From Gymnodinialimonas sp. 57CJ19 (GTDB lineage: Bacteria; Pseudomonadota; Alphaproteobacteria; Rhodobacterales; Rhodobacteraceae): a stretch of DNA of 64,000 bases. The position numbers were made by a program, and so were the translations under genes. A model generated the notes under the pieces. That model was given only the letters and a program-made list of their open reading frames with translations. It did no database searches and had not been told where the DNA came from. This document shows, piece after piece, positions 39,451-53,560 of this stretch; position 1 is the first letter of the stretch; each line of letters begins with the position of its first letter. The stretch lies in NCBI RefSeq assembly GCF_038396845.1, contig NZ_CP151587.1, positions 1,710,001 to 1,774,000 on the forward strand, read 5' to 3'.

Positions 39451-39660
39451 GTCACCCATGCGCCTTCTTCGAACCGGCCGTTTGATCCCATAGAGCTTCA
39501 GTTTCCGGTCTATCGTCGCCCGCCCCATGCCCAGTACGCGGGCTGCTTCACTGACGTTTCAACGATTGCCGCTGAGCGCATCAAGGATCATGGTCCCTTC
39601 GTCATAAGCGGGAACTGACGACACCAGGCGCCGGTTCAGTTTGCAACATCGCCCCATAGA
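39427..39660 (-). pseudogene. Remnant of an AcoR-like sigma54 activator (Fis-type HTH)
   Basis: The minus-strand frame reads EGTMILDALSGNR, then a TGA stop at 39559-39561, then NVSEAARVLGMGRATIDRKL followed by KLYGIKRP. This is the C-terminal Fis-type DNA-binding domain of sigma54-dependent activators, where the residue at the stop is usually Trp in GNxW/VS-type sequences. The ATPase and sensor domains are gone. It lies convergent to the lipoate ligase, the expected position for an acetoin regulator. It is not expected to be functional. Confidence 0.65.
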
Positions 39661-39736
39661 CGCACACGCCCCCCAGTAACGAAAAGTGCGGCCCCAATTG
39701 TTGGAGCCGCACAATGCGATAAAATCTATTGACGAA

Positions 39737-39934
39737 TTAGATCTTCGCGAGGATCTTGTCGACGGTGTCGCGAACTTCTTCCTTGGACTTGCCGAGTTTC
39801 TGCTGAAGGACGCCCTCCATCTGGTCTCGGTCACCTTTCGCGGCTTCGAGGTCATCATTGGTCAATTCACCGTAAGACTCGCGAAGTTTGCCTTTGATTT
39901 CAGTCCATTTGCCTTCGATTTGGTCGCGGTTCAT
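39737..39934 (-). CDS. CsbD family stress protein
   Basis: A 65-residue CsbD-like protein beginning MNRDQIEGKWTEIKGKLRES; the ATG at 39934 has AGGAGA upstream. The family is hydrophilic, helical and stress-induced in many bacteria, with unknown biochemical role. It is 44 bases after the small membrane protein gene on the same strand and likely shares its EcfG-type promoter. Confidence 0.93.
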   Translation of the reverse strand: MNRDQIEGKWTEIKGKLRESYGELTNDDLEAAKGDRDQMEGVLQQKLGKSKEEVRDTVDKILAKI

Positions 39935-39978
39935 GGCAGATCTCCTGGTCAGGTTAAGTTTCAAGTCACGTCGGTGGC

Positions 39979-40212
39979 TTAGTTGGAAGCGGTGGCGTCG
40001 TCTGGCGCTGTAATCTCGATGCTTGGCACCGTGATCGTCTCTTCCGTGATCTCGATTTCGCCGACTTCGGCTTCGAACTCCGGAAGATTGCCGCCTTCGA
40101 CGGTAACTTCGGGCAGAGCCGCTTCTTCGGTCTGGTCGATGTCGATCATGTAGACGCCGGCAATAATAACGATGGCGGCGACGGCGATGGCGAGGATGGT
40201 TCCGGTTTTCAT
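39979..40212 (-). CDS. Small acidic protein with one membrane helix
   Basis: A 77-residue protein with an N-terminal helix (TILAIAVAAIVIIAGVYMI) followed by about 50 very acidic residues rich in Glu, Thr and Ile (EVTVEGGNLPEFEAEVGEIE). This suggests an inner-membrane-anchored periplasmic tail. GGAGAAATAAA precedes the ATG. A GGAAC-N16-CGTT promoter lies directly upstream, tying it to the general stress response. No named family recognised. Confidence 0.75.
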   Translation of the reverse strand: MKTGTILAIAVAAIVIIAGVYMIDIDQTEEAALPEVTVEGGNLPEFEAEVGEIEITEETITVPSIEITAPDDATASN

Positions 40213-40240
40213 TTTATTTCTCCTTAGTGTCTGTGATGAG

Positions 40241-40265
40241 AACGAACAGTTCGGAAATAAGTTCC
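40241..40265 (-). promoter_or_regulatory. EcfG-type promoter of small acidic membrane protein / csbD
   Basis: On the minus strand GGAAC (40265-40261) and CGTT (40244-40241) are separated by 16 bases, matching the alphaproteobacterial EcfG consensus GGAAC-N16/17-CGTT. It lies about 30 bases before the start codon. Confidence 0.75.
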
Positions 40266-40310
40266 GTATTATTTTTCTATTAAATTCAGCGTATTAGCTG
40301 CCAAAAACGC

Positions 40311-40351
40311 AAAAGGGTGAACGGTCACGAGGCAAGACCGTTCACCCTTTT
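40311..40351 (-). terminator. Terminator after DUF1328 gene
   Basis: A perfect 16-bp stem (AAAAGGGTGAACGGTC / GACCGTTCACCCTTTT) with a 9-base loop, ending in TTTT on the minus strand and lying 23 bases beyond the DUF1328 stop. The A/T ends make it symmetrical, so it may also work on the plus strand. Confidence 0.85.
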
Positions 40352-40373
40352 GGGGTCGTTGACCTCGTCGGGT

Positions 40374-40541
40374 TTACGACCGTCCACTAACCACGCGCGC
40401 CACCAGGGAGATGACGAACAAGGCAACAAAGATAAAGAACAGGATCTGCGCGACGCCAGCTGAGGCGCCTGCGATGCCCCCAAAACCGAAGAGTGCGGCG
40501 ATCAGGGCAATGATAAGGAATGTGACGGCCCAACGAAGCAT
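40374..40541 (-). CDS. DUF1328 small membrane protein (YtjA-like)
   Basis: A 55-residue protein beginning [20 protein letters not shown]. It has two hydrophobic helices separated by a Gly/Ala turn ([12 protein letters not shown]) and a C-terminal VARVVSGRS, the standard DUF1328 layout. The start has AAAAGGAGACACATC upstream. Members are inner-membrane proteins of unknown role, often stress-regulated. It has its own GGAAC-N17-GGTT promoter and terminator, so it is a complete EcfG-controlled unit. Confidence 0.92.
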
Positions 40542-40571
40542 GATGTGTCTCCTTTTCAGTTACGAAAAGAA

Positions 40572-40597
40572 AACCCCACGACGACAGGCTTGGTTCC
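40572..40597 (-). promoter_or_regulatory. EcfG-type promoter of DUF1328 gene
   Basis: On the minus strand GGAAC (40597-40593) and GGTT (40575-40572) are spaced 17 bases, 31 bases before the DUF1328 ATG. Confidence 0.7.
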
Positions 40598-40606
40598 ACA
40601 TTCTGT

Positions 40607-40996
40607 TCAAAAAATCTGCAATCCGTGCAACAAGGCGGTCACGTCTTCGGTGCAGAACGGCTCGTCCATGAAGTGAACCCACGCCGGGTCCGCGATCGGC
40701 TGCATGCGCCCTGAATTCAGCATGATGACGGGGGTTTCGGAGAATTTCCAGAAGGCGCCATGGGTCGACGTCTCCAGGATTCCCGGTGCGGTGGACAAGA
40801 TAACAAGGCGTGCCGGCTCTAGCGGCGCTTGGGACAGCTCCGTGAACGTCAACACCTCCGTCGCGCCCTCGGCCTCCAATATGTCGCGCAAATCAAATGC
40901 CACCAACGTGTTTGGATGGATGATCAGGCACGCGGACGAGGCCACGGTTTTGGGCTGACCCAAGGGGGCGGGTGAGGCGGAATGTGCGTAAGTCAT
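40607..40996 (-). CDS. Degenerate response-regulator receiver-like protein
   Basis: A 129-residue protein with the outline of a CheY-like receiver: IIHPNTLVAFDLRDILEAEGA matches the first strand-helix region, and a later PFCTEDVTALLHGL matches the last helix. The phospho-acceptor Asp position reads LVILSTAPG, with no Asp, and the first acidic pair is absent. It therefore probably cannot be phosphorylated and may act as a binding or decoy module. It is divergent from the Crp/Fnr-type gene, sharing a 68-base intergenic region. Confidence 0.65.
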   Translation of the reverse strand: MTYAHSASPAPLGQPKTVASSACLIIHPNTLVAFDLRDILEAEGATEVLTFTELSQAPLEPARLVILSTAPGILETSTHGAFWKFSETPVIMLNSGRMQPIADPAWVHFMDEPFCTEDVTALLHGLQIF

Positions 40997-41064
40997 GATA
41001 ATGTTCTTGGTACAATTCTAGATAACTTGCATTAAGCTAGGACACACCAACGGAAAGAAGAGTT

Positions 41065-41793
41065 GTGGTCACCGATTGTGCCAATTGCCCCCTGCGTGAA
41101 CGCGAGGTTTTCGAGTCGTTAACCGCAGACGAAGCTGCATTCATGCGGCGTTTCAAGGTAGGCGAATTGAAGGTCGATGCGGGCACCACGTTGTTGATGG
41201 AAGGCTCGAACAGCCCGCAATTATTCACTGTTCTCAAGGGGATGGGCCTGCGCTACAAGCTTTTGACCAACGGAAGGCGGCAGGTTGTGAACTTCGTGTT
41301 CCCCGGCAGTTTCCTGGGTCTTCAAGCTGGGGTCATGGGCGAGATGAAACATACCGTGGAGGCGACAACCTCGATGGTTTTATGTGTCTTCGACCGGTCC
41401 GAGTTGTGGCAATTGTTCAAATCCGAGCCCGAGCGTGCGTTTGACCTGACGTGGATCTCTGCCATGGACGAACATTTCATGGGCGAGGCGCTTACCTCTG
41501 TCGGGCAGATGACTGCGATGCAGCGTCTTTCCTGGGGCCTCTTGCGGTATTACATGCGCTGCGTCGACCTTGGGCTGAACACAGGCGACCGCTGTCCATT
41601 TCCGTTCCGCCAGCAGGATTTGGCGGATGCTCTGGGCCTGTCTCTTGTCCACACAAACAAGACCTTGATGAAACTGCGCGGCAGGCAGGTTCTGTCGTTG
41701 GAGGACGGCGTGTTGAGCCTGCGTGACCGAAAACAAATGGAAGAAATCGCCATGCTTGAAGTCACCCCCCAAACCCGCCGCCCCTTGATCTGA
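41065..41793 (+). CDS. Crp/Fnr family transcriptional regulator
   Basis: A 242-residue regulator read from a GTG at 41065 with AGAAGAG upstream. The N-terminal cyclic-nucleotide-binding-like barrel is followed by a helix-turn-helix (FRQQDLADALGLSLVHTNKTLMKLRGR, in parts). The N-terminus has only DCANCPL-type cysteines (residues 5 and 8), not the four needed for an FNR iron-sulfur cluster. The signal is unknown; it may sense redox, NO or metabolites. It is divergent from the receiver-like gene. Confidence 0.9.
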   Translation: MVTDCANCPLREREVFESLTADEAAFMRRFKVGELKVDAGTTLLMEGSNSPQLFTVLKGMGLRYKLLTNGRRQVVNFVFPGSFLGLQAGVMGEMKHTVEATTSMVLCVFDRSELWQLFKSEPERAFDLTWISAMDEHFMGEALTSVGQMTAMQRLSWGLLRYYMRCVDLGLNTGDRCPFPFRQQDLADALGLSLVHTNKTLMKLRGRQVLSLEDGVLSLRDRKQMEEIAMLEVTPQTRRPLI

Positions 41794-41842
41794 GGCAGTG
41801 GCGGGCAGGGGGGCGGACGAGAGGGGTGAACAAGGGAGGTGG

Positions 41843-42643
41843 CTATTTTTCAGCCTCAATCTCGTCTTTCACTTGGCCCCAAGCCAACAGGGCGAACACG
41901 AGCGTTCCGCCCACGACGTTGCCCGCAAGAACCGGCAGGAAAAACTGGAACACCGCGGGCGCTGCGTTCAGATCACCCTGAAGGATCAGCACCCACATCT
42001 CGACCGATCCTGCGATGATATGGGTGAAGTCACCCGCCGCGATGAGCCACGTGAAGATCACAATCAACAACACTTCGCCGCCATTCTGGCTTGGCATCAT
42101 CCACACGATCGACGCGACCAGCACACCCGCCGGAATGGCGCGCAAGAAGCCTTCCGACGCCGTAAAGCCCGTGGCGTGCTGCGAAAGCTCTACAACACTT
42201 GCCAACACATCGGGGGCAACACCTGTGGTTTGGGTCATGAAGGCCGCGGCCGCGAGGGCGCCGATCACATTGGCGGCCAGTACGATGGCCCATAGGCGAA
42301 GGACAGCCACGGCGCTGCGCCAGGTGCGCTCCGCCACCAAGGGCAGGATGGTCGAGATCGTGTTTTCGGTGAATAGCTGCATCCGCCCGAGGATGACCAG
42401 CAAGAACCCCGTAGAATATCCAATGTTTTCGACCAGAAAACGCCACGGAGCATCGGGCAGGTAGGTGCGGAAGACCGCCTCGGCCAGCACCGAGAAGGAG
42501 ATCAGAATACCTGCGGCAACGCCCGACCAGACAAGTGACCTTGTGGGGCGCTCCAGTTCTTCCTCTCCATCCCTGCGGATGACCTCATAAATCAGTTTGG
42601 AACTGAGGCGGGCTGCCTCACGAACGGCCATCTCTTCGCGCAT
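41843..42643 (-). CDS. Formate/nitrite transporter family protein (FocA-like)
   Basis: A 266-residue membrane protein from the ATG at 42643 (GAAGGA upstream). About six helices are visible, with family blocks GRMQLFTENTISTILPL, LAANVIGALAAAAFM and LAGNVVGGTLVFALL. The N-terminus is charged and cytoplasmic. FNT channels move formate, nitrite or similar anions; this subgroup is often stress-associated rather than anaerobic. It shares a divergent intergenic region with dps, and each side has a GGAAC-type promoter. Confidence 0.88.
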   Translation of the reverse strand: MREEMAVREAARLSSKLIYEVIRRDGEEELERPTRSLVWSGVAAGILISFSVLAEAVFRTYLPDAPWRFLVENIGYSTGFLLVILGRMQLFTENTISTILPLVAERTWRSAVAVLRLWAIVLAANVIGALAAAAFMTQTTGVAPDVLASVVELSQHATGFTASEGFLRAIPAGVLVASIVWMMPSQNGGEVLLIVIFTWLIAAGDFTHIIAGSVEMWVLILQGDLNAAPAVFQFFLPVLAGNVVGGTLVFALLAWGQVKDEIEAEK

Positions 42644-42668
42644 GGGTATTCCTTCTCGTTCGCCGGGT

Positions 42669-42693
42669 AACGCGCCTGCGTCCACTTGGTTCC
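42669..42693 (-). promoter_or_regulatory. EcfG-type promoter of FocA-like gene
   Basis: On the minus strand GGAAC (42693-42689) and CGTT (42672-42669) are spaced by exactly 16 bases, 26 bases before the start codon. Confidence 0.8.
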
Positions 42694-42706
42694 CATAACT
42701 TTGGGA

Positions 42707-42731
42707 GGAACTTCTGCGTCGGCCCCGTGTT
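42707..42731 (+). promoter_or_regulatory. EcfG-type promoter of dps
   Basis: GGAAC (42707-42711) and GTT (42729-42731) spaced 17 bases on the plus strand, 30 bases before the dps start. It lies back to back with the FocA-side site. Confidence 0.7.
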
Positions 42732-42760
42732 GGTTCGCTGAACAAGCAAAGGAGATAACC

Positions 42761-43258
42761 GTGACTGACACATTGGAAATCGTACCAAGCGCAGATGAAG
42801 TCGCCTCGGGCGTGCGAGGCGCGTCGGCCGTGGCCGAGGGATTGGCCGACGTTCTGGCCGACACCTACCGCCTGACGTTCAAGACCCACGCCTACCATTG
42901 GAACGTCACCGGTCCGGCCTTCTATTCGATCCACAAGCTGACCGATGATCATTATGAGAATATGTTTGCCGCCGCAGACGTGCTGGCTGAACGCATCCGC
43001 GCATTGGGCAAACTGGCGCCAACACGGTTGGACGACATCGTGAAACGCTCTCGGGTGAAGGATCTCGACAAGCTGCCCTCTGCTGGCGGCATGGTGGAGG
43101 ATCTGGCCCAAGACCACGAGAAACTGGCCCACCGTCTGCACGCGCTGGTCGAACTGGCCGGAAATCACAAGGACCCGGTGACCGAGGACCTGGCAACAGA
43201 GCGCAGCGCGTTCCACGAAGAAGCTACATGGATGCTCCGGGCGATCATCGCCAGCTAA
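42761..43258 (+). CDS. dps: Dps family DNA-binding ferritin-like protein
   Basis: A 165-residue Dps read from a GTG at 42761, with AAAGGAGATAACC directly upstream. The ferroxidase region is THAYHWNVTGPAFYSIHKLT, followed by the DDHYENMFAAADVLAERIRALG segment (in parts), the classic Dps signature that places the iron site at the dimer interface. Dps stores iron and protects DNA from oxidants. It has an EcfG-type promoter and a strong terminator. Confidence 0.96.
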   Translation: MTDTLEIVPSADEVASGVRGASAVAEGLADVLADTYRLTFKTHAYHWNVTGPAFYSIHKLTDDHYENMFAAADVLAERIRALGKLAPTRLDDIVKRSRVKDLDKLPSAGGMVEDLAQDHEKLAHRLHALVELAGNHKDPVTEDLATERSAFHEEATWMLRAIIAS

Positions 43259-43282
43259 AGCCCTTGGCACCGTCGCAAAAGA

Positions 43283-43312
43283 AAGCCCCGGCCAAACGGT
43301 CGGGGCTTATTA
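43283..43312 (+). terminator. Terminator after dps
   Basis: AAGCCCCGGCC pairs with GGTCGGGGCTT (one G-U) over AAAC, followed by ATTATTCT. It also sits near the end of the convergent phyR. Confidence 0.85.
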
Positions 43313-43333
43313 TTCTGAGTGATGCGGAGCCGA

Positions 43334-44161
43334 TTAAACGGCAACTTCAATATGTTCAGAGGAGGCGAAGAACATCGCCTGGCTGACCGCAGCCCGCACC
43401 TGATCTTCCGAGTAAGGCTTGGTGATCAGGAAAGCAGGTTCTGGCCGCTCGCCGGTCAGCAGTCGCTCGGGGAATGCCGTGATGAAGATCACCGGACGGT
43501 CGCCCAGATCCTTGAGCAGCGCGTTGACCGCATCAATTCCCGAGGATTTGTCGGCCAGCTGGATATCCGCCAGAATCAGGTCAGGCGCGTTCGCCTTGCC
43601 TTTGGCAATCGCGTCATCGCGGGTACGGGCAACGTCTGTCACCGTGTGGCCCATGTCGGTCACGATGGATTTCAGGTCCATCGCGATGATGCCTTCGTCC
43701 TCGATGATCAAGATATCGCCGGTCACCATGTCACCCATTTCCGCACGCGCCCGTCCGACCAGTTCTTCGGCCTCGGCCTGAGGGATGTCCATAATGCGTG
43801 CAAGGTTGCTGAAGGAGAAACCTTCGACCGTATGCAGAAGCAATGCTTCACGCGTGTTGGCTGTGAGTTGCGCCAAACGCCGTTGTGCGCGGGCCTCTAG
43901 CGGGGCAGAGGGGTCCGCCTCCTCGGGCATGGGGGCGCCCGAACTGGACCAGATGCCGTGGAACATCCGGAACAAGCCAACTTTCGTGGAATCATCTTCT
44001 GCAAGAGTGGAAGGGTCAGCTACGATCGCCTCTAATGTCGCCATTGCGTATCGGTCGCCAGTGTCCTGGACACCGGTTAACGCCCGCGCATAGCGACGCA
44101 AAAACGGCAGGTCTGTCACCAACTGCGCGCTTAAGTCCGTTGTAGTTTCGGTCGATGCCAT
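43334..44161 (-). CDS. phyR: Two-component response regulator PhyR
   Basis: A 275-residue anti-anti-sigma factor. Residues 1-145 form the sigma-factor-like domain (FLRRYARALTG, later EGFSFSNLARIMDIPQAEAEEL). Residues 149-275 form a receiver, with ILIIEDEG and the phospho-acceptor Asp199 in LILADIQLAD. On phosphorylation, PhyR captures NepR and frees EcfG to drive the general stress response. It is divergent from nepR-ecfG across a symmetrical EcfG promoter, so it is autoregulated. All key residues are present. Confidence 0.97.
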   Translation of the reverse strand: MASTETTTDLSAQLVTDLPFLRRYARALTGVQDTGDRYAMATLEAIVADPSTLAEDDSTKVGLFRMFHGIWSSSGAPMPEEADPSAPLEARAQRRLAQLTANTREALLLHTVEGFSFSNLARIMDIPQAEAEELVGRARAEMGDMVTGDILIIEDEGIIAMDLKSIVTDMGHTVTDVARTRDDAIAKGKANAPDLILADIQLADKSSGIDAVNALLKDLGDRPVIFITAFPERLLTGERPEPAFLITKPYSEDQVRAAVSQAMFFASSEHIEVAV

Positions 44162-44190
44162 GCTTTTTTCTCCTCGTGGACATTTAATTG

Positions 44191-44217
44191 GGAACCTTTT
44201 GCAGCCACAATGGTTCC
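44191..44217. promoter_or_regulatory. Bidirectional EcfG promoter between phyR and nepR
   Basis: The palindromic GGGAACC-N15-GGTTCCC block reads as GGAAC-N16-GGTT on both strands: plus 44191-44215 toward nepR, minus 44217-44193 toward phyR. The nepR start codon is 38 bases from the plus-strand end. Confidence 0.85.
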
Positions 44218-44252
44218 CACCCAGACCACATTTATTTTGTTACCGGTGAAAT

Positions 44253-44411
44253 ATGGCCTCAGATACCAAAAAAACCAGCGTGAATCGGCAGATCGACGAA
44301 AATTTAAAGCGCGTCTACGACGACGCGATGAAGGACGAATTGCCCGATCGATTTATGGACCTAATTGCTCAACTCAAAGCAAAAGAAGGAGTTGGCAAAG
44401 ATGGGAACTGA
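44253..44411 (+). CDS. nepR: Anti-sigma factor NepR
   Basis: A 52-residue protein beginning MASDTKKTSVNRQIDENLKR. The core RQIDENLKRVYDDAMKDELP, then DRFMDLIAQLK, is the NepR helix pair that holds EcfG. The C-terminus overlaps the ecfG start by 11 bases. NepR sequesters EcfG until PhyR-P takes it away. Its short length is normal for the family. Confidence 0.95.
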   Translation: MASDTKKTSVNRQIDENLKRVYDDAMKDELPDRFMDLIAQLKAKEGVGKDGN

Positions 44412-44949
44412 CCCACGCGACGAGATCGTCGAGCACTTGCCGTCGATGCGTGCCTTTGCGCGCTCGCTGACGCGCAATCCGTCTTCGGCCGATGATCTGG
44501 TGCAAGACACCGTCGTGAAGGCGTGGTCGAATATCGACAAGTTCGAAGCGGGCACAAACATGCGTGCCTGGTTGTTCACCATCTTGCGCAACACCTTCTA
44601 CTCCGCCCATCGCAAGCAAAAGCGCGAGGTCGAGGACATCGACGGTGACATGGCAGAACGTCTGTCAGAAAAGCCCGCGCATGATGGTCGTCTGGCCATG
44701 AAGGACTTTGCCGTGGCCTTCACCAAACTGCCCGATGAACAGCGCGAAGCGTTGCTGTTGGTCGGCGCGGAGGGGTTTTCCTATGAGGAAGCCGCAGACA
44801 TGTGCGATTGCGCCGTTGGCACGATCAAATCCCGTGTGAATAGGGCACGGAAGCGGTTGATCGAGCTTCTTGGATTGCGTGATGATGAGGAGTTGGAGCT
44901 GACCGACGCGGCAACCGTGGCTGTGTTGTCTGGACCCTCTGCGGCATGA
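44401..44949 (+). CDS. ecfG: General stress sigma factor EcfG
   Basis: A 182-residue ECF sigma factor from the ATG at 44401. Region 2 has DLVQDTVVKAWSNIDKFEAG and FTILRNTFYSAHRKQKREVE (in parts); region 4 has GFSYEEAADMCDCAVGTIKSRVNRARKRL (in parts). It directs RNA polymerase to GGAAC-N16/17-CGTT promoters. It overlaps nepR by 11 bases and the histidine kinase by 4 (ATGA), so the module is translationally coupled. Confidence 0.97.
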   Translation: MGTDPRDEIVEHLPSMRAFARSLTRNPSSADDLVQDTVVKAWSNIDKFEAGTNMRAWLFTILRNTFYSAHRKQKREVEDIDGDMAERLSEKPAHDGRLAMKDFAVAFTKLPDEQREALLLVGAEGFSYEEAADMCDCAVGTIKSRVNRARKRLIELLGLRDDEELELTDAATVAVLSGPSAA

Positions 44950-46718
44950 CCACCTTCAAACGTCTATGGAGAAGCGCCACGTCGCTAAAGGCGCGACTGG
45001 CGCTTTTCCTGAGCCTTGCTATCCTCCCTCTTGGGATCATTGCCGTGGTTCAAACCACGGCAGTGGTCCGGGATGCGCGGTTCCTGGAGCAGCACGATAT
45101 CCTTGCGCGCACCGCACAGGCAGCAAGCGCTGAGCAGGCGTTGTTGCGCCGTGCCCATGGTGCTGCGACGGCACTGGGGGCCGCCGCCACGATCATCGGC
45201 ACCAGCGGAGAGACATGCGCCGCAGCGATGGAGCGCTTCGTCGAGCAATCGCAGGCCTACATCTACGCGGGGTATTCGTCGATCACTGGCGATGTTTCAT
45301 GTGCCAATGGGCGCGAAGGCTTCGCCCTGGCAGACCGTGCCGAATGGCAGGATTTCATCGAGCGTCCGCGCCCAATGATTACGGTGGAGGTGAGTGATGA
45401 AGATGGCGGGCCATCGGTCATCGTTGCAACCGCCCCCGTTTTCGACCCCGCCACATTGGCGTTGCTTGGCGCCGCGTCTGTTGCGATGCCCAACAGCCTG
45501 ACCGATACCTTGTTGGCGTCCGAGGTTGAGGACGTGGAACTGGCGTTGATCGATGATACTGGTCAAGTGCTCTCCGCCAGCACTGGCATTACGGATATCG
45601 AGATTTTCGAGACGCTCAGCGTCGCGCCCGATGACCTGGGGATGAACTCTCGCGGAGTGACGTTCAACGTGGTCGCGGAGGATGGCACTCAGCGGTTGGC
45701 GGCTCTGGTTCCGCTGATCGAAGATCGCGTCTACGTCCTGGGCTTATGGCACGGCGAGGTACAGAATTACTCTGTCTCCGTGTTCGGCTCCTTAACACCG
45801 CTCTTCCCTATCTTGATGTGGGTCATGGCGTTTGGCGTTGGCTTTTTGGCCCTCAACCGTTTGATCCTTCGCCACCTGAAGGAAATCCGGCGGCGCATGG
45901 CCGCGTTCTCGTTTGAAAACCCAAGTGCCGGTGTGGCCAATCTTGATGATCCCCCCGATGAGTTTCGCCAGATCGCGACGACTTATAATGGGATGATCAA
46001 AAGGATGCAGGCAGACCGGGACGAGCTTGAAGAAAACCTTGAAGAAAAAGAGCTGTTGCTGCGCGAAGTGCATCACCGGGTGAAAAATAACCTCCAGTTG
46101 ATCGCCTCGATCCTGAATATGCAGATGCGCGCGGCGCCAGACAGCACGTCCAAGTGGGCGTTGCGACGGGTTCAGGACCGCGTGATGAGTCTCTCGACGA
46201 TCCACAAGGCTCTCTACACGGGGACCTCAATGGTTCACGTCTGGGGCGACAAGCTGTTGGAAGAAGTCGTGCAAGCCACGTTCAATGTGGGCGTGCCTCA
46301 GGGCGAGGGCATCCGCACGTCCCTGCACTTGGACCCGTTGAAGTTGGACCCCGATCAGGCCGTGCCACTGGCGCTGTTGGCGAATGAAACTGTTACCAAT
46401 GCGGTGAAATACATCGGCCGTCCGGAGAACGGGCCTCCCACGCTGGATGTCCGGCTTGTGGCGGGCGCGAACCGTGAAGTCACCCTGACGGTCGAGAACA
46501 GCACCGGGGTCCCTATCCAGGAAAACCTTGCCACGGAAAGTACGGGCCTTGGTATTCGACTGGTCGAGGCATTCGTGTCGCAACTCGGCGGTGAATGGGA
46601 AGTGATTGAACGCCCGGGAACCTTTTGCCTGAAGATGGTGTTCACCGCTTTTGATCTGGCCCCCGAGCCAGCCATGCCCGACGCCGACCCCAGCGTGTCC
46701 GTGGCGAAACAAGGGTGA
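44946..46718 (+). CDS. Sensor histidine kinase of the HisKA_2/HWE type (PhyK-like)
   Basis: A 590-residue membrane kinase. Helix 1 is about residues 18-40, the periplasmic part about 41-283, and helix 2 around PLFPILMWVMAFGVGFLAL. HAMP is followed by the phospho-acceptor block LREVHHRVKNNLQLIASILN with the phosphohistidine probably His377. The HATPase core follows (ALLANETVTNAVKYIG and the TGLGIRLVEAFV G-box). It probably feeds PhyR, given the operon. The sensory domain is not one I recognise. Confidence 0.92.
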   Translation: MTTFKRLWRSATSLKARLALFLSLAILPLGIIAVVQTTAVVRDARFLEQHDILARTAQAASAEQALLRRAHGAATALGAAATIIGTSGETCAAAMERFVEQSQAYIYAGYSSITGDVSCANGREGFALADRAEWQDFIERPRPMITVEVSDEDGGPSVIVATAPVFDPATLALLGAASVAMPNSLTDTLLASEVEDVELALIDDTGQVLSASTGITDIEIFETLSVAPDDLGMNSRGVTFNVVAEDGTQRLAALVPLIEDRVYVLGLWHGEVQNYSVSVFGSLTPLFPILMWVMAFGVGFLALNRLILRHLKEIRRRMAAFSFENPSAGVANLDDPPDEFRQIATTYNGMIKRMQADRDELEENLEEKELLLREVHHRVKNNLQLIASILNMQMRAAPDSTSKWALRRVQDRVMSLSTIHKALYTGTSMVHVWGDKLLEEVVQATFNVGVPQGEGIRTSLHLDPLKLDPDQAVPLALLANETVTNAVKYIGRPENGPPTLDVRLVAGANREVTLTVENSTGVPIQENLATESTGLGIRLVEAFVSQLGGEWEVIERPGTFCLKMVFTAFDLAPEPAMPDADPSVSVAKQG

Positions 46719-46724
46719 CGTGTC

Positions 46725-48218
46725 GTGAGTACTGAAAAAACCAAGACCCCAGACCCGATCAGTGAGTTGGAGGTCTTCTTCACTGCAAGCGAAGCGTTTC
46801 CCGCGTTTGAAAGACTGTGTCTGAACGCGGCAGAGCGTATCACCTGTTGTTTCCGGGTCTTCGATCCGACCACTAGCCTTCATAGCGAAGAAGGGCTGGC
46901 GATTGGAGAAACGTGGTTCGATCTGTTGCTGCATGTTCTGAACAAGGGCGTGGCGGTCGACATCACGATCAGCGACTTCGACCCGATTGTTGCAACCGAC
47001 GACCATCGACGCTCTTGGCATGCTGCAAGGCAGCTTGCGGCGTTGGATGAACTGTCGGGCAATGCCTGCCTGACCTTCAAGATTGCCATGCATCCGGCGC
47101 GGGTCGGGTTTTTGCCCCGCCGTGCGCTGAAGTCAAAAGTTGTCGAAAAGCTCGAAGCGCGAGACCCGGACCCCCTGACACCGGGCTTGCAGGATCTCAG
47201 CCCCAGTGATGACCTGCCCCTGCGCCCGGCAACCCATCACCAGAAACTGGCCGTTGTGGATGACGAGGTGCTCTATATCGGCGGTTTGGACCTGAACGAC
47301 CGCCGCTATGATACCAGGTGGCACGACCAGAGCTCTGAACAAACGTGGCAGGATATTCAATCCATCGCCCGCGGGCCTGTGGTGGCCGCGGCGCGGGCGC
47401 ATCTGGACAGTTTCCAAGAGGTCACAGCGGGTCAAGCGGACGCGCCGCCGCAAGCGCCGGGCTTTTTGCGGACGCTCTCGCGCAGGCGGAGCCAAGGGCT
47501 TACCCATATTGCGCCCCGGCCCGCGATCACGGAGATAGAAGAGGCGCATTTGGCCGCGATCGAGCGAGCCGAAGGGCTGATCTATCTGGAAACGCAGTTT
47601 TTTCGCCACAAACCCTTGGCTGATGCCTTGGCCAAGGCAGCCCGTCGCAAGGAAAATCTCGCTTGCATCCTGATTTTGCCCGCCGCGCCTGAAGATGTGG
47701 CGTTTGAAGGGAACGACGGCGAAGATGCCCAGAAAGGCGCGCATTTGCAGGTCAATGCGCTGAAGATCCTGGCCAAAGGGTTTGGTGACCGGCTGGCCCT
47801 TGCCGCCCCAGCGCAGCCGCGCCCCGCTGTTGATGTGCCCGATACGGCAGTGATCCACGGCGCTCCGTTGATCTACGTCCACTCCAAGCTGTCGCTTTTT
47901 GGGACGGACGAGGCGATATTGTCTTCGGCAAACCTGAACGGGCGCAGCTTTCGTTGGGATACGGAGGCGGGATTGCACCTGACCCAACGCGCCCATGTGA
48001 AGCCTCTTTGGCCACGCGCGCTACGCCATTGGCTGCGCGAAGATGCGCCCGATCCATTCGGCAAGCCTGCGGACGTCGTCTCGCAAATCAACAGCCGTTT
48101 GGCCGAAAACGCAGCCGCCGCGCCGCAGGACCGTCGCCATCTTCTGTTGCCCTTCGACCATAGCGATCAGATGGAACTCGCCTCGTCCTTGCCGATCGTC
48201 CCGGACGAGATGCTCTAA
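46725..48218 (+). CDS. Phospholipase D-like domain protein
   Basis: A 497-residue protein from a GTG at 46725 (AAGGGTGAC upstream), 6 bases after the kinase. Two PLD-fold halves are visible. The first HKD motif is intact (HHQKLAVVDDEVLYIGGLD). The second reads VHSKLSLFGTDEAILSSANLNGRSF: His and Lys are present but the position of the catalytic Asp holds Gly, so it is imperfect. PLD proteins hydrolyse or transfer phosphodiesters; lipid remodelling under stress is a reasonable guess. No signal peptide. Confidence 0.85.
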   Translation: MSTEKTKTPDPISELEVFFTASEAFPAFERLCLNAAERITCCFRVFDPTTSLHSEEGLAIGETWFDLLLHVLNKGVAVDITISDFDPIVATDDHRRSWHAARQLAALDELSGNACLTFKIAMHPARVGFLPRRALKSKVVEKLEARDPDPLTPGLQDLSPSDDLPLRPATHHQKLAVVDDEVLYIGGLDLNDRRYDTRWHDQSSEQTWQDIQSIARGPVVAAARAHLDSFQEVTAGQADAPPQAPGFLRTLSRRRSQGLTHIAPRPAITEIEEAHLAAIERAEGLIYLETQFFRHKPLADALAKAARRKENLACILILPAAPEDVAFEGNDGEDAQKGAHLQVNALKILAKGFGDRLALAAPAQPRPAVDVPDTAVIHGAPLIYVHSKLSLFGTDEAILSSANLNGRSFRWDTEAGLHLTQRAHVKPLWPRALRHWLREDAPDPFGKPADVVSQINSRLAENAAAAPQDRRHLLLPFDHSDQMELASSLPIVPDEML

Positions 48219-48285
48219 GGGGCAAGGCGACCGTCGCGGGGAAGGCGCAGAAGGAAATAAAACGCGGACTTTTTGTGACCGTGTT

Positions 48286-48310
48286 GGAACCTTTCTGCAT
48301 CCCTCCAGTT
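48286..48310 (+). promoter_or_regulatory. EcfG-type promoter of the envelope-protein operon
   Basis: GGAAC (48286-48290) and GTT (48308-48310) are spaced 17 bases on the plus strand, about 140 bases before the 48448 gene. Confidence 0.65.
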
Positions 48311-48447
48311 ACTTAGATACAGACAATGCAAAACAGATGAGACGCGTCGCAGGTCAGGGCCATCCCTGATCCGCATGGAGGGGCTTTGCCTGAGCGCACC
48401 CCAAAAGCCCGCGCAGTTTGTTGCGGAAAATTATAAAGGAGTTCGCC

Positions 48448-48924
48448 ATGACACGTTCGACAAAATCCGACATCGCGACGGCGGCAAAAGAAACCGCCGA
48501 GGAAGTCGCAAAAACCGCGAAGGCAAACGCCGCCGTGAAAGCGGAAGCTGCAAAAGAAGACGTGGCTGATCGGGTTTCCGAGCAAGCCGAGAACTTCCGC
48601 GAAGCAAGCGAAGCGTTTGAAAACAACGCCTTGGCGTCGGATGCGGTGAAATATTTGGGCGACAATCTTGCCCACGCGGCCACCGCCGTGCGGGATATGG
48701 ATCTGTCCAATATTCAGCATGATTTGACGCAATTTGCCCGTCGCAACCCGCTCGTCTTTTTCGGTGGTGCGGCGGCCCTGGGCTTCCTCGCGGCCCGCGC
48801 GATGAAGGCGTCCGAGCGTGCACATACGCCCGCCACGCATCCCGATCACCTGGATTACTCCGGTGTGCCTGCCGGCCGTGATGCTTTGGCCGAGCAGGGC
48901 ACAAAAGGGTGGGGGTACTCCTAA
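48448..48924 (+). CDS. Helical Ala/Lys-rich protein with one membrane helix
   Basis: A 158-residue protein from the ATG at 48448 (AAAGGAG upstream). The first 80 residues are a charged, Ala/Glu/Lys-rich helix of heptad type; one hydrophobic segment sits at VFFGGAAALGFLAARAM. A short His-containing tail follows. This layout resembles DUF883/YqjD-like stress proteins that anchor at the membrane. It is the first of three overlapping genes with an EcfG-type promoter. Confidence 0.72.
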   Translation: MTRSTKSDIATAAKETAEEVAKTAKANAAVKAEAAKEDVADRVSEQAENFREASEAFENNALASDAVKYLGDNLAHAATAVRDMDLSNIQHDLTQFARRNPLVFFGGAAALGFLAARAMKASERAHTPATHPDHLDYSGVPAGRDALAEQGTKGWGYS

Positions 48925-49328
48925 TGCAATCCCCGCGTTCTGATCTTAGCGGGTCTGCCCATCTTCTGACGGATATCGTCAGTCAAATCGGGCGGATCCT
49001 GCGCAAAGAGGCGGCGCTGGCCAAGGCCGAGGTGGGCGAAAACCTGTCTCGGGCCGGGGTGGCGATCGGGCTGATCGTGGGTGCCGCGCTTTTGGCGCTA
49101 GTCGCGCTGATCGCGCTCGCCGGTGCCGGTGTGGCTGCTTTGGTGGCCGTGCTTGGATGGGCGACCCACTGGGCCGCATTGGCGGTCGGGGGCGGGATCG
49201 CGTTGATCGCGATAGGTCTTGCGGCCAAGGGCATCTATGACCTGAAGCCCAAGCGCCTGATGCCAAATCGCAGCATCGCCAACGTCCAGCAGGACGTGGC
49301 AATAGTGAAGGAGCGGATCAATGGCTAG
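48924..49328 (+). CDS. Phage-holin superfamily III-like protein (YqjE type)
   Basis: A 134-residue protein from the ATG at 48924, which overlaps the preceding stop by one base (TAATG). Two long membrane helices are visible (GVAIGLIVGAALLALVALIALAGA and WAALAVGGGIALIAIGLAAKG, in parts) between charged ends. Similar YqjE-type proteins are membrane stress proteins, not necessarily lytic holins. The order YqjD-like then YqjE-like matches the E. coli pair. Confidence 0.82.
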   Translation: MQSPRSDLSGSAHLLTDIVSQIGRILRKEAALAKAEVGENLSRAGVAIGLIVGAALLALVALIALAGAGVAALVAVLGWATHWAALAVGGGIALIAIGLAAKGIYDLKPKRLMPNRSIANVQQDVAIVKERING

Positions 49329-50187
49329 CATGAAGCGCATCGAAGCAGAGTTGCAGGCCGAACGTGATGTTCTGCGCGCGCAGCTCATGGCGTTGGAAAC
49401 GCAGTTTTCCCCGGACCGACTTGTCGGCAAGGCCTCCGCCATTCTTGGCGGATTAGGGGAGGGCGCTGTGACCACCGCCCGGAAAAACCCTGGTCCGTTG
49501 GCCGTGACCGTTGGCGGTCTGGCGTGGATGGCTGTGAAGGCTGCCACACGTCAAAGCGGCCCGCGCGTCGGCTACGACACGACGCCCAGTGAAACTGTCG
49601 GCGGGTTGCGCCAACCCAGACCGCCGATGGCGGGTTTTGACGCCCGTGTTCAAGCCGCTGACAGCGCGATGAAAGCGGCACAAACCGCACAGTACAATGA
49701 AGGAGAATACTCCATGACCGATAGAACTCAACAAACCCGCCTGAGCCATGCCAAGGACCGTCTTTACGAGACGACCGAAGGACTTCGTGCCCGGATTGAA
49801 GAAGGTCTTGACGGCCTGCCCGACGGCGCCAAGGACCGCATCCGCAAGGCGCGGGAAGCTGCGATTTCCGTGCAAGCCCGTGCCGAGGCAGAAGCCTCTC
49901 GTGCTGCCCGCGCCGCCCGCGAAACGGCCCGTGACAACCCGCTTCTTGTGGGCGGTCTCGCCCTTGCCGCCGGTGCAGCGCTGGCAATGATGTTGCCACG
50001 CACCCAGATCGAAGATCGCACCATTGGCGCCCACCGTGACCGTTTGTTCGACGAGGCAGAGCGGATCTTCCAGGAAGAGAAGGCCAAACTGCAAGTCGCC
50101 GCCGAAGACGCCGTCGCCGAAGGGCAGAAGCGCGTGAAGGAATCTCTCGCGTCAGACGGCAAAGGGGGCGTGGGCCAAGCGGCCTAA
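49321..50187 (+). CDS. DUF3618-like envelope stress protein
   Basis: A 288-residue protein whose start overlaps the previous gene by 8 bases. It begins MASMKRIEAELQAERDVLRAQL, a pattern like DUF3618 N-termini, then a hydrophobic helix (NPGPLAVTVGGLAWMAVKAA). A long Ala/Arg/Glu-rich helix follows, and a second hydrophobic stretch (NPLLVGGLALAAGAALAMMLP). It ends in charged coiled-coil sequence. No enzymatic motif. The three genes probably form a membrane-associated complex. Confidence 0.7.
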   Translation: MASMKRIEAELQAERDVLRAQLMALETQFSPDRLVGKASAILGGLGEGAVTTARKNPGPLAVTVGGLAWMAVKAATRQSGPRVGYDTTPSETVGGLRQPRPPMAGFDARVQAADSAMKAAQTAQYNEGEYSMTDRTQQTRLSHAKDRLYETTEGLRARIEEGLDGLPDGAKDRIRKAREAAISVQARAEAEASRAARAARETARDNPLLVGGLALAAGAALAMMLPRTQIEDRTIGAHRDRLFDEAERIFQEEKAKLQVAAEDAVAEGQKRVKESLASDGKGGVGQAA

Positions 50188-50221
50188 GCGGTGCCTCTGC
50201 CCCGATGACTGATCCAATCGA

Positions 50222-50253
50222 CCCCCATCCCGTCACGGGATGGGGGCCTTTCT
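50222..50253 (+). terminator. Terminator of the envelope-protein operon
   Basis: A perfect 11-bp stem (CCCCCATCCCG / CGGGATGGGGG) with a 3-base loop, then CCTTTCTATT. It lies between the DUF3618-like and YihY-like genes. Confidence 0.85.
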
Positions 50254-50272
50254 ATTGAAAAGGCCACACGAC

Positions 50273-51250
50273 ATGACCGAAGCAAAACCAGCCAGCCCAC
50301 CGCGCGGCCAGAACGCCGAAAATCCAGCCCAGATTCCCGCTCGCGGCTATCTCGATGTCGCGATGCGCGTGGTGAAGCGCCAGGGGCGTGACCAGTTGAG
50401 CTTGATTGCCGCGGGTGTTGCGTTTTTCGGGATGTTGGCGCTTTTCCCCGCTTTGGCCGTCGTGGTTGCCTTGGGTGGCATCTTCGTGCGCCCCTCTCAA
50501 ATCGTGGAAGAGGCCGAGACCTATTTGTCCGCCATGCCCAATGATGCCCGAGAGATCGTGGAAGGCCAGATGCTGGAGCTGGCGCGGGCGGACGGAGAGG
50601 CCCTTAGCATCGCTGCTTTGATCGCCCTGGGACTGGCAATATACTCTTCCAGCAAAGGCATGGCGAACTTGATTTCCGGTCTGAACGTTGCGTACGCGGA
50701 GGACGAGGAACGAGGCTTCATAGCGCTGCAGTTACGCATCATCGCCCTGACAGTGTTTTCGATCCTTCTGGGACTGTTCTCGATCGCAGCCCTGGCGGTC
50801 TTGCCGCTAAGCGCGGATCTCATTTTCCGCTCGGAGACGCTGACCAATCTGGTGTTGATCCTGAGGTGGCCGCTGTTGATCGTAATGGCGTCGGTCGCGT
50901 TCAGTGTGATCTACCGTTACGGCCCGTCACGCCGCCAGCCCAAGTGGCGCTGGATTGCGCCGGGCAGCGTTCTGGCGGTTCTGATGTGGGTTAGCGCTAC
51001 TTTCGGCTTTGCATGGTATGTGCAGGCATTCGGCACCTATAACGAGACGTTCGGCACCCTCGGAGGCGTGATCGTTCTGCTTATGTGGCTGTGGTTGAGC
51101 GCCTATTCCATTCTACTGGGCGCAACAATTGATGCAGAGCTGGAAGCGCAGACGATGGAAGACAGCACAGTCGGTGCGGATCGTCCCATGGGTCAGCGCG
51201 GCGCCGTGAAGGCCGATAGCTGCGATGCCGGGGTCACCGACCCGGCTTAA
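50273..51250 (+). CDS. YihY/BrkB family inner-membrane protein
   Basis: A 325-residue protein from the ATG at 50273. About six helices are visible, with the family GVAFFGMLALFPALAVVVALGG block early and YRYGPSRRQPKWRWIAPGS plus TFGTLGGVIVLLMWLWLSAYSILLGA (in parts) late. Earlier labelled ribonuclease BN, the family is now regarded as membrane proteins of unknown function. It is convergent with the AI-2E family gene and shares the stop-codon palindrome. Confidence 0.92.
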   Translation: MTEAKPASPPRGQNAENPAQIPARGYLDVAMRVVKRQGRDQLSLIAAGVAFFGMLALFPALAVVVALGGIFVRPSQIVEEAETYLSAMPNDAREIVEGQMLELARADGEALSIAALIALGLAIYSSSKGMANLISGLNVAYAEDEERGFIALQLRIIALTVFSILLGLFSIAALAVLPLSADLIFRSETLTNLVLILRWPLLIVMASVAFSVIYRYGPSRRQPKWRWIAPGSVLAVLMWVSATFGFAWYVQAFGTYNETFGTLGGVIVLLMWLWLSAYSILLGATIDAELEAQTMEDSTVGADRPMGQRGAVKADSCDAGVTDPA

Positions 51251-51258
51251 GCCGGGTC
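51239..51258. terminator. Palindrome spanning both stop codons of convergent genes
   Basis: A perfect 20-base palindrome (GACCCGGCTT / AAGCCGGGTC) whose centre contains the TAA stops of both the YihY and AI-2E genes. It can form the same hairpin on either transcript and probably acts as a bidirectional terminator. Confidence 0.6.
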
Positions 51259-52296
51259 GATCGGCGTGGGGACGGTATCGTCTTTGCCGTCCATCATCAC
51301 GAAGCGGACCCACACCACGAGAGGAATGGCGACAAGCCCGCCAATCGGCCCCCAGAGCCAGAGCCAAAACACCAGCGACAAGAACACCATCAAGGGGTTC
51401 AGCGCCATATGACGTCCGACGAACGTCGGCGTCACAAATTGCGATTCCACAAGGTTAAGGCCAATGAATGCGGCCACCGGGGCCACGACCATCGGACCGT
51501 CGAAGGTCACGATACCGACCAGCAGAAGCGCCACGGTAATGAGACCCGGCCCAAGGTAGAGCACGAAGTTCAACAGGAACGCGGCGAAACCCCACATGAT
51601 GGGCTGAGGCATCCCAAGGACGGACATAACCAGCATGACGGCAACGCCAAACCCTGCGTTAATTGTCGAAATCGCGAGGAAATACCGCGAGACACGTGCC
51701 TCTGCGCGGATCAGAAGAGATTCGGACAATTGCGGGACGAAGCGGCAGACGCGCGCGTATACATCGCGGCGCGTGGTCAGAAAGAAATAGAGCGTGCCGA
51801 TAAAGATCATGATGCCCCCCAACACGGCGGGACCGTAGGATAGTGCGTCCAGCAGGTTGGGGATTGGCACCGCGGTGGTTTCTGCCTCGGGTCCCGCCTC
51901 GGCCCCGTCTGACAGCGCCTCGTTAACGGTGTCCTGGATTTCCTGCACGTCCGCCACCGCGCCGCGCAAACCTTCCACGAAAGTCCGCATCTCGGACCAG
52001 ATCAAAGGCCCGTTTCGAATGGCATGGGTGACCGTTGGCTCCACCACAAAGAACAAGGCCCCGGCGAGCACGAAGAATGTCGCCAGGATCAAAAGAGCCG
52101 CTGCGGCGCTTGGGACACGAAACCGTTCCAGAAAATCGACGAAAGGGGCCAGGACCAGTCCCAACACAATCGCGACAAGCACCGGCGCAATAAGGCCCTG
52201 AGCGTGGTCAAGCACCAGCCCAAGGAGAATGACAACAAGGACGATGTTGGCCATCGGCAACGTGCGTGCCGGAGATTTGATTTTTTCCATACCCAT
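51247..52296 (-). CDS. AI-2E family transporter
   Basis: A 349-residue membrane protein of the TqsA/PerM-like family. Helices are paired at the N-terminus (NIVLVVILLGLVLDHAQGLI, APVLVAIVLGLVLAPFVDFLERFRVP in parts), and the conserved C-terminal region includes FLLNFVLYLGPGLITVALLL and FIGLNLVESQFVTPTFVGR. The family includes osmolyte and autoinducer exporters; the substrate is unknown. It has an EcfG-type promoter and so belongs to the stress group. Confidence 0.9.
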   Translation of the reverse strand: MGMEKIKSPARTLPMANIVLVVILLGLVLDHAQGLIAPVLVAIVLGLVLAPFVDFLERFRVPSAAAALLILATFFVLAGALFFVVEPTVTHAIRNGPLIWSEMRTFVEGLRGAVADVQEIQDTVNEALSDGAEAGPEAETTAVPIPNLLDALSYGPAVLGGIMIFIGTLYFFLTTRRDVYARVCRFVPQLSESLLIRAEARVSRYFLAISTINAGFGVAVMLVMSVLGMPQPIMWGFAAFLLNFVLYLGPGLITVALLLVGIVTFDGPMVVAPVAAFIGLNLVESQFVTPTFVGRHMALNPLMVFLSLVFWLWLWGPIGGLVAIPLVVWVRFVMMDGKDDTVPTPIDPA

Positions 52297-52298
52297 CT

Positions 52299-52323
52299 AA
52301 CGTGCAAACAGGCCAAAGGTTCC
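52299..52323 (-). promoter_or_regulatory. EcfG-type promoter of AI-2E family gene
   Basis: On the minus strand GGAAC (52323-52319) and CGTT (52302-52299) are spaced by 16 bases, ending only 3 bases from the annotated ATG. The start codon may therefore lie further in, or the transcript is nearly leaderless. Confidence 0.65.
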
Positions 52324-52351
52324 TGCCGATCAATGGGTGATTATTCAAGCG

Positions 52352-53560
52352 CTATTGGGCAGCCATCCGGTCCGCGGCGGAGCCGGGCGCGGCATATCCA
52401 TCGCGGGTTTGGGGCGTCTTGATCCCAAGTACTGCCCCCGCAACCTGCGTGCGCAGGATTTGCGCGGTGCCACCGCCGATGGTGAACATCCGCACGTCGC
52501 GGTACATCCGCTCCAACGGTTCCCTGTCGCTGTAGCCGCGTGCACCAAACATTTGCAGCGCGTCGTTTACCACCTTTATGGCCACTTCCGAGGCGAACAA
52601 TTTCGCCCGCGCAGCCATCGTCATGTCAGGGAAGGCCTTACCCGATTTGGCCGCTTCATGGAGCATCAGACGGGCCGCATGGACCTGCGTGTCCATGTCT
52701 GCCACCATCCATTGAAGCCCTTGAAACTCTGCGATGGGGCGGCCAAATTGTTCGCGGTCCAACAGGTAGCGTTTGGCATGCTCCAAGGCACCCGCTGCGA
52801 CCCCAAGGGCTATCGTGCCCGCGCCCACGCGTTGCGAATTATAGGCGGTCATCAGGTCGGCAAAGCCGCGCTGCAAACCCGACGGCGGTGTCAGAAGCCA
52901 CTTCTCATGGACCTCCAGCCCCTCAAAACGCAGTTCTGCTTCAGGCATGCCACACAGCCCCATGGTGTGCTCGCGCCCCACGACGGTAAAGCCCTTGGGT
53001 AATTCGCCACTTTGGCTATCGGCAAAGACAATGAAGCCGCCGATGCCTTGGGGTGTGCCATCCTCGGCCAGGACCTGCGCGAATATGAGGTGGAGCTTCG
53101 ACACGCCGCCCCCGGTTATCCAGTGCTTGCAGCCGTTCAGCACATAGGTATCGCCGCGCTTGCGGGCCGTGGTTTGCATCTGCGTGGCGGCACTTCCGGC
53201 CTCGGGCTCGGTGATGCAGATCGCGGGCTTGTCGCCGGCCAGAACATACGGCGCGCAGAACGATTTTTGCGCATCGGTCCCGTACGCCATGACGGCGCTG
53301 ATGCCGCCCATGTTGGCCTCTACCACGATCCGGGCCGTCAGGGTGCAGACCTTGGCGATTTCTTCGACGACCATGGCCACGTCCAGAAAGCTGGCCCCTT
53401 GGCCGCCCAATGCCTTCGGGATCGTCATGCCCATGATCCCGGCTTCGGCCAGCTTGGCCACATTGGGCCAGCAATAGCTGCGGGTCTTGTCCCAATGGGC
53501 CGCGCGTTCAGCAAAGCCGGGGGCAAGGTCGCGGGCGGTTTGGACAAGGGGGTGGGACAT
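52352..53560 (-). CDS. Acyl-CoA dehydrogenase family protein
   Basis: A 402-residue flavoprotein. The ATG at 53560 has AAAGGAG upstream. Family blocks: MGMTIPKALGGQGAS, the FAD-site ITEPEAGSAATQMQT and NGCKHWITGGG, then GLCGMPEAELRFEG, QRVGAGTIALGVAAGALEHA and the C-terminal RDVRMFTIGGGTAQILRTQVAG (in parts). The catalytic Glu position near the end is replaced by Gly-rich IGGGTAQI, as in some subgroups. It oxidises an acyl-CoA; the substrate is not clear. It is divergent from a LysR gene. Confidence 0.92.
   Translation of the reverse strand: MSHPLVQTARDLAPGFAERAAHWDKTRSYCWPNVAKLAEAGIMGMTIPKALGGQGASFLDVAMVVEEIAKVCTLTARIVVEANMGGISAVMAYGTDAQKSFCAPYVLAGDKPAICITEPEAGSAATQMQTTARKRGDTYVLNGCKHWITGGGVSKLHLIFAQVLAEDGTPQGIGGFIVFADSQSGELPKGFTVVGREHTMGLCGMPEAELRFEGLEVHEKWLLTPPSGLQRGFADLMTAYNSQRVGAGTIALGVAAGALEHAKRYLLDREQFGRPIAEFQGLQWMVADMDTQVHAARLMLHEAAKSGKAFPDMTMAARAKLFASEVAIKVVNDALQMFGARGYSDREPLERMYRDVRMFTIGGGTAQILRTQVAGAVLGIKTPQTRDGYAAPGSAADRMAAQ

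Follow-up and report, generated by a model that had tools for sequence, protein, structure and literature searches.

How does the gene for a general stress sigma factor come to stand among so many copies of the promoter attributed to that factor, and how are the genes that restrain and release it themselves transcribed? Both questions are raised by a 64,000-nucleotide stretch of the chromosome of Gymnodinialimonas sp. 57CJ19, hereafter the window, which represents bases 1,710,001-1,774,000 of a single-contig genome of 3.86 Mb. At positions 40241-52323 of the window lie phyR, nepR and ecfG, encoding a PhyR-NepR-EcfG stress switch, together with a series of EcfG-type promoter sites. In the reading that we favor, at a probability of about 0.78, this region is a general-stress-response island in which EcfG would drive its own regulators and at least six neighboring units, with phyR and nepR transcribed from one interlocked promoter. 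The general stress response of the Rhodobacterales has been little studied, and a 2018 paper states that PhyR had until then never been analyzed for stress in any member of the order (PMC5830050). Within a small space, the island brings together a natural collection of likely EcfG promoters and of small membrane proteins.

EcfG-type sites around the sigma factor gene

By its profile matches, the cluster is a complete PhyR-NepR-EcfG switch accompanied by a PhyK-like kinase. PhyR (43334-44161, minus strand), an anti-anti-sigma factor with sigma-like and receiver domains, scores 354 bits against a cut-off of 240 for NF006623 and also matches PF22029, PF22233 and PF00072, and the anti-sigma factor NepR (44253-44411, plus strand) scores 57 bits against the PF18557 cut-off of 25.7. 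The ecfG gene (44401-44949, plus strand) adjoins nepR and is close to phyR; its product exceeds the PRK12546 equivalog cut-off (325 versus 270 bits), a model whose title reads RNA polymerase sigma factor only, and contains Sigma70_r2 and r4_2 domains. The HisKA_2 histidine kinase, whose gene (44946-46718, plus strand) is assigned to the nepR-ecfG operon, matches the PhyK model with an E value of 1e-65, at 222 bits against a cut-off of 750; this gene follows ecfG in 20/20 loci laid out. The gene identities proposed in the initial annotation, namely CsbD, DUF1328, the formate/nitrite transporter family, ferritin/Dps, PhyR, NepR, an EcfG-type sigma factor and an AI-2E transporter, were all borne out by profile matches.

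Candidate promoters were searched as exact matches to GGAAC-N17/18-GTT, equivalent to GGAAC-N16/17-NGTT, on both strands, and at the level of sequence they are present both on the proposed targets and on the regulators themselves. Every site named at the outset was recovered: those of the small membrane protein/csbD unit (40241-40265, minus strand), the DUF1328 gene (40572-40597, minus strand, N18), the FocA-like gene (42669-42693, minus strand), dps (42707-42731, plus strand), the envelope operon (48286-48310, plus strand) and the AI-2E transporter gene (52299-52323, minus strand), along with a pair in the phyR-nepR interval (44191-44215, plus strand, with 44193-44217, minus strand). They are recognized as likely promoters by their motif and, as described below, by conservation. 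Sites do lie on both strands of the phyR-nepR interval, but they form a single palindromic element and not the two places for which they had been counted. The AI-2E promoter stands, while the start of its gene was re-assigned, probably to 52254, since 52296 and 52290 are too near the -10 element of the site at 52299.

A looser search of the window (GGAAC-N15..18-GTT) returned 19 matches, against 7.8 ± 2.8 in 100 dinucleotide shuffles (largest 17); further matches in the window lie at 39611, 41886 (N15) and 28860. The whole genome holds 157 sites (97 with N17 and 60 with N18), or one per 24.6 kb. Nine of these fall within 40241-52323, where 0.49 would be expected, the ninth being a match in the kinase gene at 46617; with overlapping pairs merged, the 12.1 kb here contain eight of 153 sites and are the densest 12.1 kb of the genome, and eight merged sites were reached by one in 20,000 uniform random placements. 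The initial annotation had called so many targets near the sigma factor unusual, and against the genome background the cluster is indeed the densest stretch of the chromosome, but a raised density around ecfG is common to related loci and not unique to this one. Gene starts were taken from a home-made codon-usage gene caller, whose calls are crude. By its calls, 104 of the 157 sites fall inside genes and 36 no more than 200 bp ahead of a start; the caller had run focA over the frame opposite dps, and the restoration of two sites by hand brought these figures to 102 and 38. After this correction, eight of the 38 start-proximal sites lie in the cluster (0.3% of the genome with 21% of such sites), and the genes downstream of the other 30, their sequences read by eye, include putative CsbD-like, PRC-barrel-like and small membrane protein genes.

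The placement of sites in related loci provides a stronger test of the regulon first proposed, and supports it: the sites are kept in place across the genus. Here, genus and family are used as assigned by the comparison tool, and related species are counted as separate loci. A close ecfG was found in 11 of 12 other genus genomes (the exception, G007, is 83% complete) and in 13 of 24 other family genomes (E below 1e-45). The 20 kb around ecfG were read in the 11 genus genomes and in nine of the 13 family genomes, and a further 79 named loci were retrieved with the window EcfG as query, a sample that favors closer relatives. After six duplicates were dropped, the comparison set comprised 12 genus loci (the window included) and 82 others, 94 in all, one of the 82 (L128) being titled a Rhizobiaceae metagenome-assembled genome.

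A site precedes nepR in 12/12 genus and 80/80 other loci, phyR in 12/12 and 76/82, and duf1328 in 12/12 and 40/43 with the gene in reach. The corresponding figures are 9/9 and 3/4 for the small membrane protein, 10/12 and 3/7 for the first envelope gene, 12/12 and 14/33 for focA, 10/10 and 14/24 for dps, and 10/10 and 9/18 (with the gene in reach) for ai2e, and csbD has a site of its own in 2/11 genus and 14/16 other loci. Sites are found before ecfG, the kinase gene, holin-X, duf3618 and orf129 in 0/12 genus loci and in none or one elsewhere; for crp the counts are 3/12 and 1/35, for pld 2/12 and 1/23, and for brkB 0/7 and 4/40. Eight permuted motifs averaged 0 to 0.9 loci per gene, and the counts for genes lying within operons are likewise close to zero. 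Site density was 0.54 per kb in the genus loci and 0.34 in the others, versus 0.056 and 0.045 for the permuted motifs, and about 0.04-0.06 per kb over whole genus genomes. In the genus this density peaks in the stretch of about 5 kb upstream of ecfG and at 4-8 kb downstream of it, and in the 82 other loci it declines with distance from ecfG; outside the core it averages 0.25 per kb in the 70 of these 82 that were long enough, 55 of which reach at least 0.15 per kb.

Several observations weigh against an EcfG-driven island. The motif is short and most of its genome matches lie inside genes. Reversed, it occurs 500 times genome-wide as against 157, so that the real motif is rarer than its control and therefore not over-abundant in the genome. 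Some family members have no close ecfG (11/24 family genomes, and G007 in the genus), and beyond the genus focA, dps and ai2e often stand near ecfG without a site, as the proportions above indicate (14/33, 14/24 and 9/18 with one). The 104 of 157 matches called inside genes and the commoner reversed motif, together with the lack of any site beyond the core in some related loci (minimum 0.00 per kb), would also suit the notion that most of the sites match a short motif by chance, their concentration being due to base composition or to the attention of the reader. Such an origin is extremely improbable when set against the density of permuted motifs in the genus loci (0.056 versus 0.54 per kb), the retention of sites ahead of particular genes in most, if not all, of the genus loci that hold those genes, and the 1 in 20,000 obtained by placement. 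The clustering could also reflect horizontal transfer or a recent assembly of a stress island in the genus, and not selection for proximity to the sigma factor gene. Among the 20 loci laid out, the gene order is constant only within the genus and differs elsewhere, but the density outside the core in the other loci (0.25 per kb in 70 of 82, with 55 of the 70 at 0.15 or above) and the recurrence next to ecfG, in different arrangements, of several gene families found here make this rather unlikely.

The interlocked phyR-nepR promoter

The phyR-nepR interval of the window contains GGAACC-N15-GGTTCC, which reads as an N17 promoter on either strand. This self-complementary element (44191-44217) would serve nepR-ecfG on the plus strand (44191-44215) and phyR on the minus strand (44193-44217), with each strand's -35 on or against the other strand's -10. 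An exact interlocked pair at a fixed offset is present in 86 of the 94 loci, the offset being 7 bp in 62, 6 in seven, 5 in one and 2 in 16. The coincident form, at offset 2, is found in all 12 genus loci and in L056, L057, L061 and L129. In the offset-7 form each -10 sits 2 nt from the opposite -35, and it keeps its place beside the other -35 whether the spacers are 17/17 (28 loci), 18/18 (21 loci) or mixed (13 loci). The middle of the spacer varies in these 62 pairs; as exact elements were a condition for counting a pair, it is the number of loci that constitutes real evidence. The eight loci without an exact pair comprise five offset-7 pairs with one mismatch, two loci with no pair, and L128, which is back-to-back with two mismatches.

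Of 199 family genomes, sampled at one per genus, 43 contain the exact offset-7 pattern, each of them once only, against 1/199 for the reversed control; the 199 were counted whether or not they carry ecfG. In the four of these 43 genomes that were inspected (G022, G027, G030 and G173), the pattern lies at the core locus. A class-wide sample, which includes four family genomes besides the window's own, has it in 2/289 genomes. Within the window's own genome, self-complementary N17/N18 sites occupy four of the 153 merged places, and symmetry is therefore no general property of the motif there.

NepR was found in 47/241 genomes of the class, and 30 loci were examined, 27 of them outside the family. 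Ten of the 30 (in the range L256-L285) carry back-to-back nepR and phyR promoters whose -35 elements are a nearly fixed 6-9 bp apart, four have wider back-to-back pairs, and 12 have no core pair by the exact motif; the remaining four are the window itself, a family member with offset 7, and L259 and L271, which belong to another family and have offset 2, and at which phyR may or may not be divergent. L256 and L262 combine a back-to-back pair with an offset-2 partner. Outside the family, the interlocked form thus occurs in 4/27 sampled loci and separate back-to-back promoters in 10/27, two of these having both. Since offset-2 pairs occur in other families, the coincident form is not unique to the window's genus.

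As an inverted repeat with a gene of the Crp family not far away, GGAACC...GGTTCC might instead be an operator for a dimeric transcription factor that happens to resemble EcfG promoters. This is very unlikely, as the -35/-10 distance on each strand is constant (N17 or N18) while the half-site distance shifts among offsets 2, 5, 6 and 7, and 10 of the 30 class NepR loci have two back-to-back sites instead, two of them with an extra offset-2 partner.

We infer from these features that EcfG transcribes the neighboring targets, that the two directions of the shared element are mutually exclusive, and that the ratio of PhyR to NepR-EcfG is set in this way. In the proposed scheme, NepR would hold EcfG until phosphorylated PhyR frees it, and EcfG would then act on the small membrane protein/CsbD, DUF1328, FocA-like, Dps, envelope operon and AI-2E transporter units. 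It would also drive phyR and nepR-ecfG-kinase from the one self-complementary promoter, which EcfG-RNA polymerase would occupy in either orientation but not in both at once, since a polymerase bound to the shared DNA should keep a second one off. Activity should be high once the switch is on, EcfG being both product and driver, and directional competition would fix the PhyR:NepR-EcfG ratio. A recent study of E. coli bidirectional promoters reports that such competition emerges at high activity and lowers noise, basal activity being too low for it (PMC12825309). Partner-switch circuits depend on the ratio of sigma to anti-sigma to anti-anti-sigma factor, and a shared promoter, if the scheme is true, would fix that ratio in the DNA.

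More tentatively, and at somewhat less than even odds, this may extend to the Rhodobacteraceae that have the switch: the choice of direction at each binding would clamp the PhyR:NepR-EcfG ratio through promoter asymmetry, reducing noise and capping positive feedback. Furthest along would be the window's genus, its coincident palindrome using nearly the same bases as -35 one way and -10 the other. The 10 nt outside the -35 have an A/T content of 0.71 on the nepR side versus 0.49 on the phyR side; of 85 pairs, 68 are richer in A/T on the nepR side and 11 poorer. This A/T-rich flank may favor the nepR direction; it is also near the phyR transcript start, leaving other reasons for its richness possible. 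In Rhodobacter sphaeroides, whose own promoter lies outside the comparison, phyR and ecfG mRNA answer different stresses according to PMC5830050, a divergence that does not fit a fixed ratio in that species and so tells against the proposal.

The interlocked geometry may instead have been inherited from a family ancestor and tolerated with no regulatory effect. It occurs mainly in one clade, and the phyR-nepR intergenic region is short (median 102.5 bp), with little room for two separate promoters. Yet in ten loci of other families the phyR-nepR interval accommodates a back-to-back pair of promoters, and the offset-7 pairs keep both elements despite a varying mid-spacer, a point in which, given their exactness by construction, it is again the locus count that matters. 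We regard passive inheritance as somewhat unlikely. A search of the literature, covering open-access titles and abstract openings with most subscription papers outside it, found no description of overlapping phyR/nepR promoters or of a clustered Rhodobacterales EcfG regulon.

Gene content and apparent turnover of the proposed island

The csbD gene (39737-39934, minus strand; PF05532) is likely co-transcribed behind the gene for a 77-residue acidic protein (39979-40212, minus strand), which has one N-terminal hydrophobic stretch as read by eye and belongs to no Pfam family. A DUF1328 membrane protein is encoded at 40374-40541 (minus strand), next to a 129-residue protein (40607-40996, minus strand) whose gene has no EcfG site of its own and lies near the stress switch in 12/12 genus loci. 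Only a structure model gives this protein a receiver fold, apparently degenerate and without the phosphorylation pocket, and it is possible that it serves as a pseudo-receiver partner of the stress pathway. The window copy has no Pfam or PDB sequence match; among ten orthologues, two show a weak resemblance to DUF4350 (best E 0.003). A Crp/Fnr-family regulator, identified by profile matches (41065-41793, plus strand), is followed by the FocA-like protein of the formate/nitrite-transporter family (41843-42643, minus strand), which falls below the NCBIfam FocA cut-off, and by the Dps/ferritin-like protein (42761-43258, plus strand), which is over the PF00210 cut-off and below that of the Dps model. 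The -35 elements of focA and dps are 13 bp apart in 9 of 11 loci compared.

Downstream of the kinase gene, the phospholipase-D-like gene pld (46725-48218, plus strand) is probably part of the nepR-ecfG operon. A match at 46617-46642 (plus strand) shares GGAACCTTTTGC with the core promoter; it is not conserved and is probably coding. It was rejected as a promoter, as it lies within the kinase coding region and any site before pld is found in only 2/12 genus loci. The four-gene envelope operon has a long 5' leader (48311-48447, plus strand), structured and partly covarying, with conserved stems and strongly conserved blocks; in an Rfam 15 search over 39000-53000, the four matches obtained were weak, each under its curated score, and lay outside the leader. 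The operon itself, on the plus strand, encodes a 158-residue protein (48448-48924) with no Pfam match, a holin-X superfamily (PF07332) membrane protein (48921-49328), a 288-residue protein (49321-50187) with a weak PF12279 match below cut-off, and a BrkB-family membrane protein (50273-51250, start from the gene caller). The labels duf883 (48448) and duf3618 (49321), attached to the 158- and 288-residue proteins, are guesses, neither being assigned by Pfam. The AI-2E family transporter lies at 51247-52254 (minus strand), with the re-assigned start.

Two genes found in relatives are missing from the window. A 59-residue membrane protein (MSAPDTN..., with one hydrophobic stretch; L031 6600-6904, minus strand, and equivalents in nine other genus loci) can be read in the crp-focA interval of 10 of the 11 other genus loci; nine genus loci pass the similarity threshold, with a site in 9/9. 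It has no match in the window's genome and is also missing at the same spot in L032. In relatives, the seemingly orphan EcfG site of the crp-focA interval was considered as the promoter of a GsrN-type small RNA, a reading that was rejected because the site precedes this membrane-protein gene. A DUF2383 protein gene lies before the envelope operon in six genus loci, with its own site in 6/6 (for example L038 13437-14010 in the ecfG-forward orientation, with equivalents in other genus loci). An additional site that relatives have downstream of pld and ahead of this operon likewise leads into a protein gene, that of the DUF2383 protein. Both genes come with a site in all the genus loci counted, and island genes thus seem to be gained or lost jointly with their EcfG promoter.

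Comparison with known systems

The PhyR-NepR-EcfG regulators of other bacteria are themselves EcfG targets. The three proteins encoded here are the same as those of the alphaproteobacterial PhyR-NepR-EcfG response, as set out in four papers (PMC3892343, PMC5830050, PMC6599016, PMC12148442), and the promoter consensus is the same as that of S. melonis, which this set of papers gives as GGAAC-N17-20-GTT. In R. etli, phyR is likewise divergent from the nepR-ecfG unit; unlike R. etli, where the kinase gene is beside phyR, the kinase gene here comes after ecfG. The island differs from the known systems in its unusually dense local regulon and in its overlapping promoter elements (at offsets of 2, 5, 6 or 7 bp, with both directions on the same DNA in the 86 loci), where the known systems have separate phyR and nepR promoters.

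GsrN and GsrN-like small RNAs are found under sigma-EcfG near the ecfG locus, according to PMC5869019. The leader at 48311-48447 is comparable in position and structure alone, in that an EcfG-type promoter near ecfG is followed by a structured, conserved RNA; unlike GsrN, this RNA is the leader of a protein operon.

Bidirectional promoters of the sigma-70 type have reportedly been described in E. coli by Warman, Grainger and colleagues. In PMC12825309, pseudo-symmetric DNA accepts two polymerase orientations, one excluding the other, an arrangement to which the present one is likened from a reading of promoter elements only. Unlike those promoters, the element described here belongs to an extracytoplasmic function sigma factor and has a symmetry by which the -35 of either direction is linked to the opposite -10, and the pair would drive a sigma/anti-sigma operon against the gene of the anti-anti-sigma factor.

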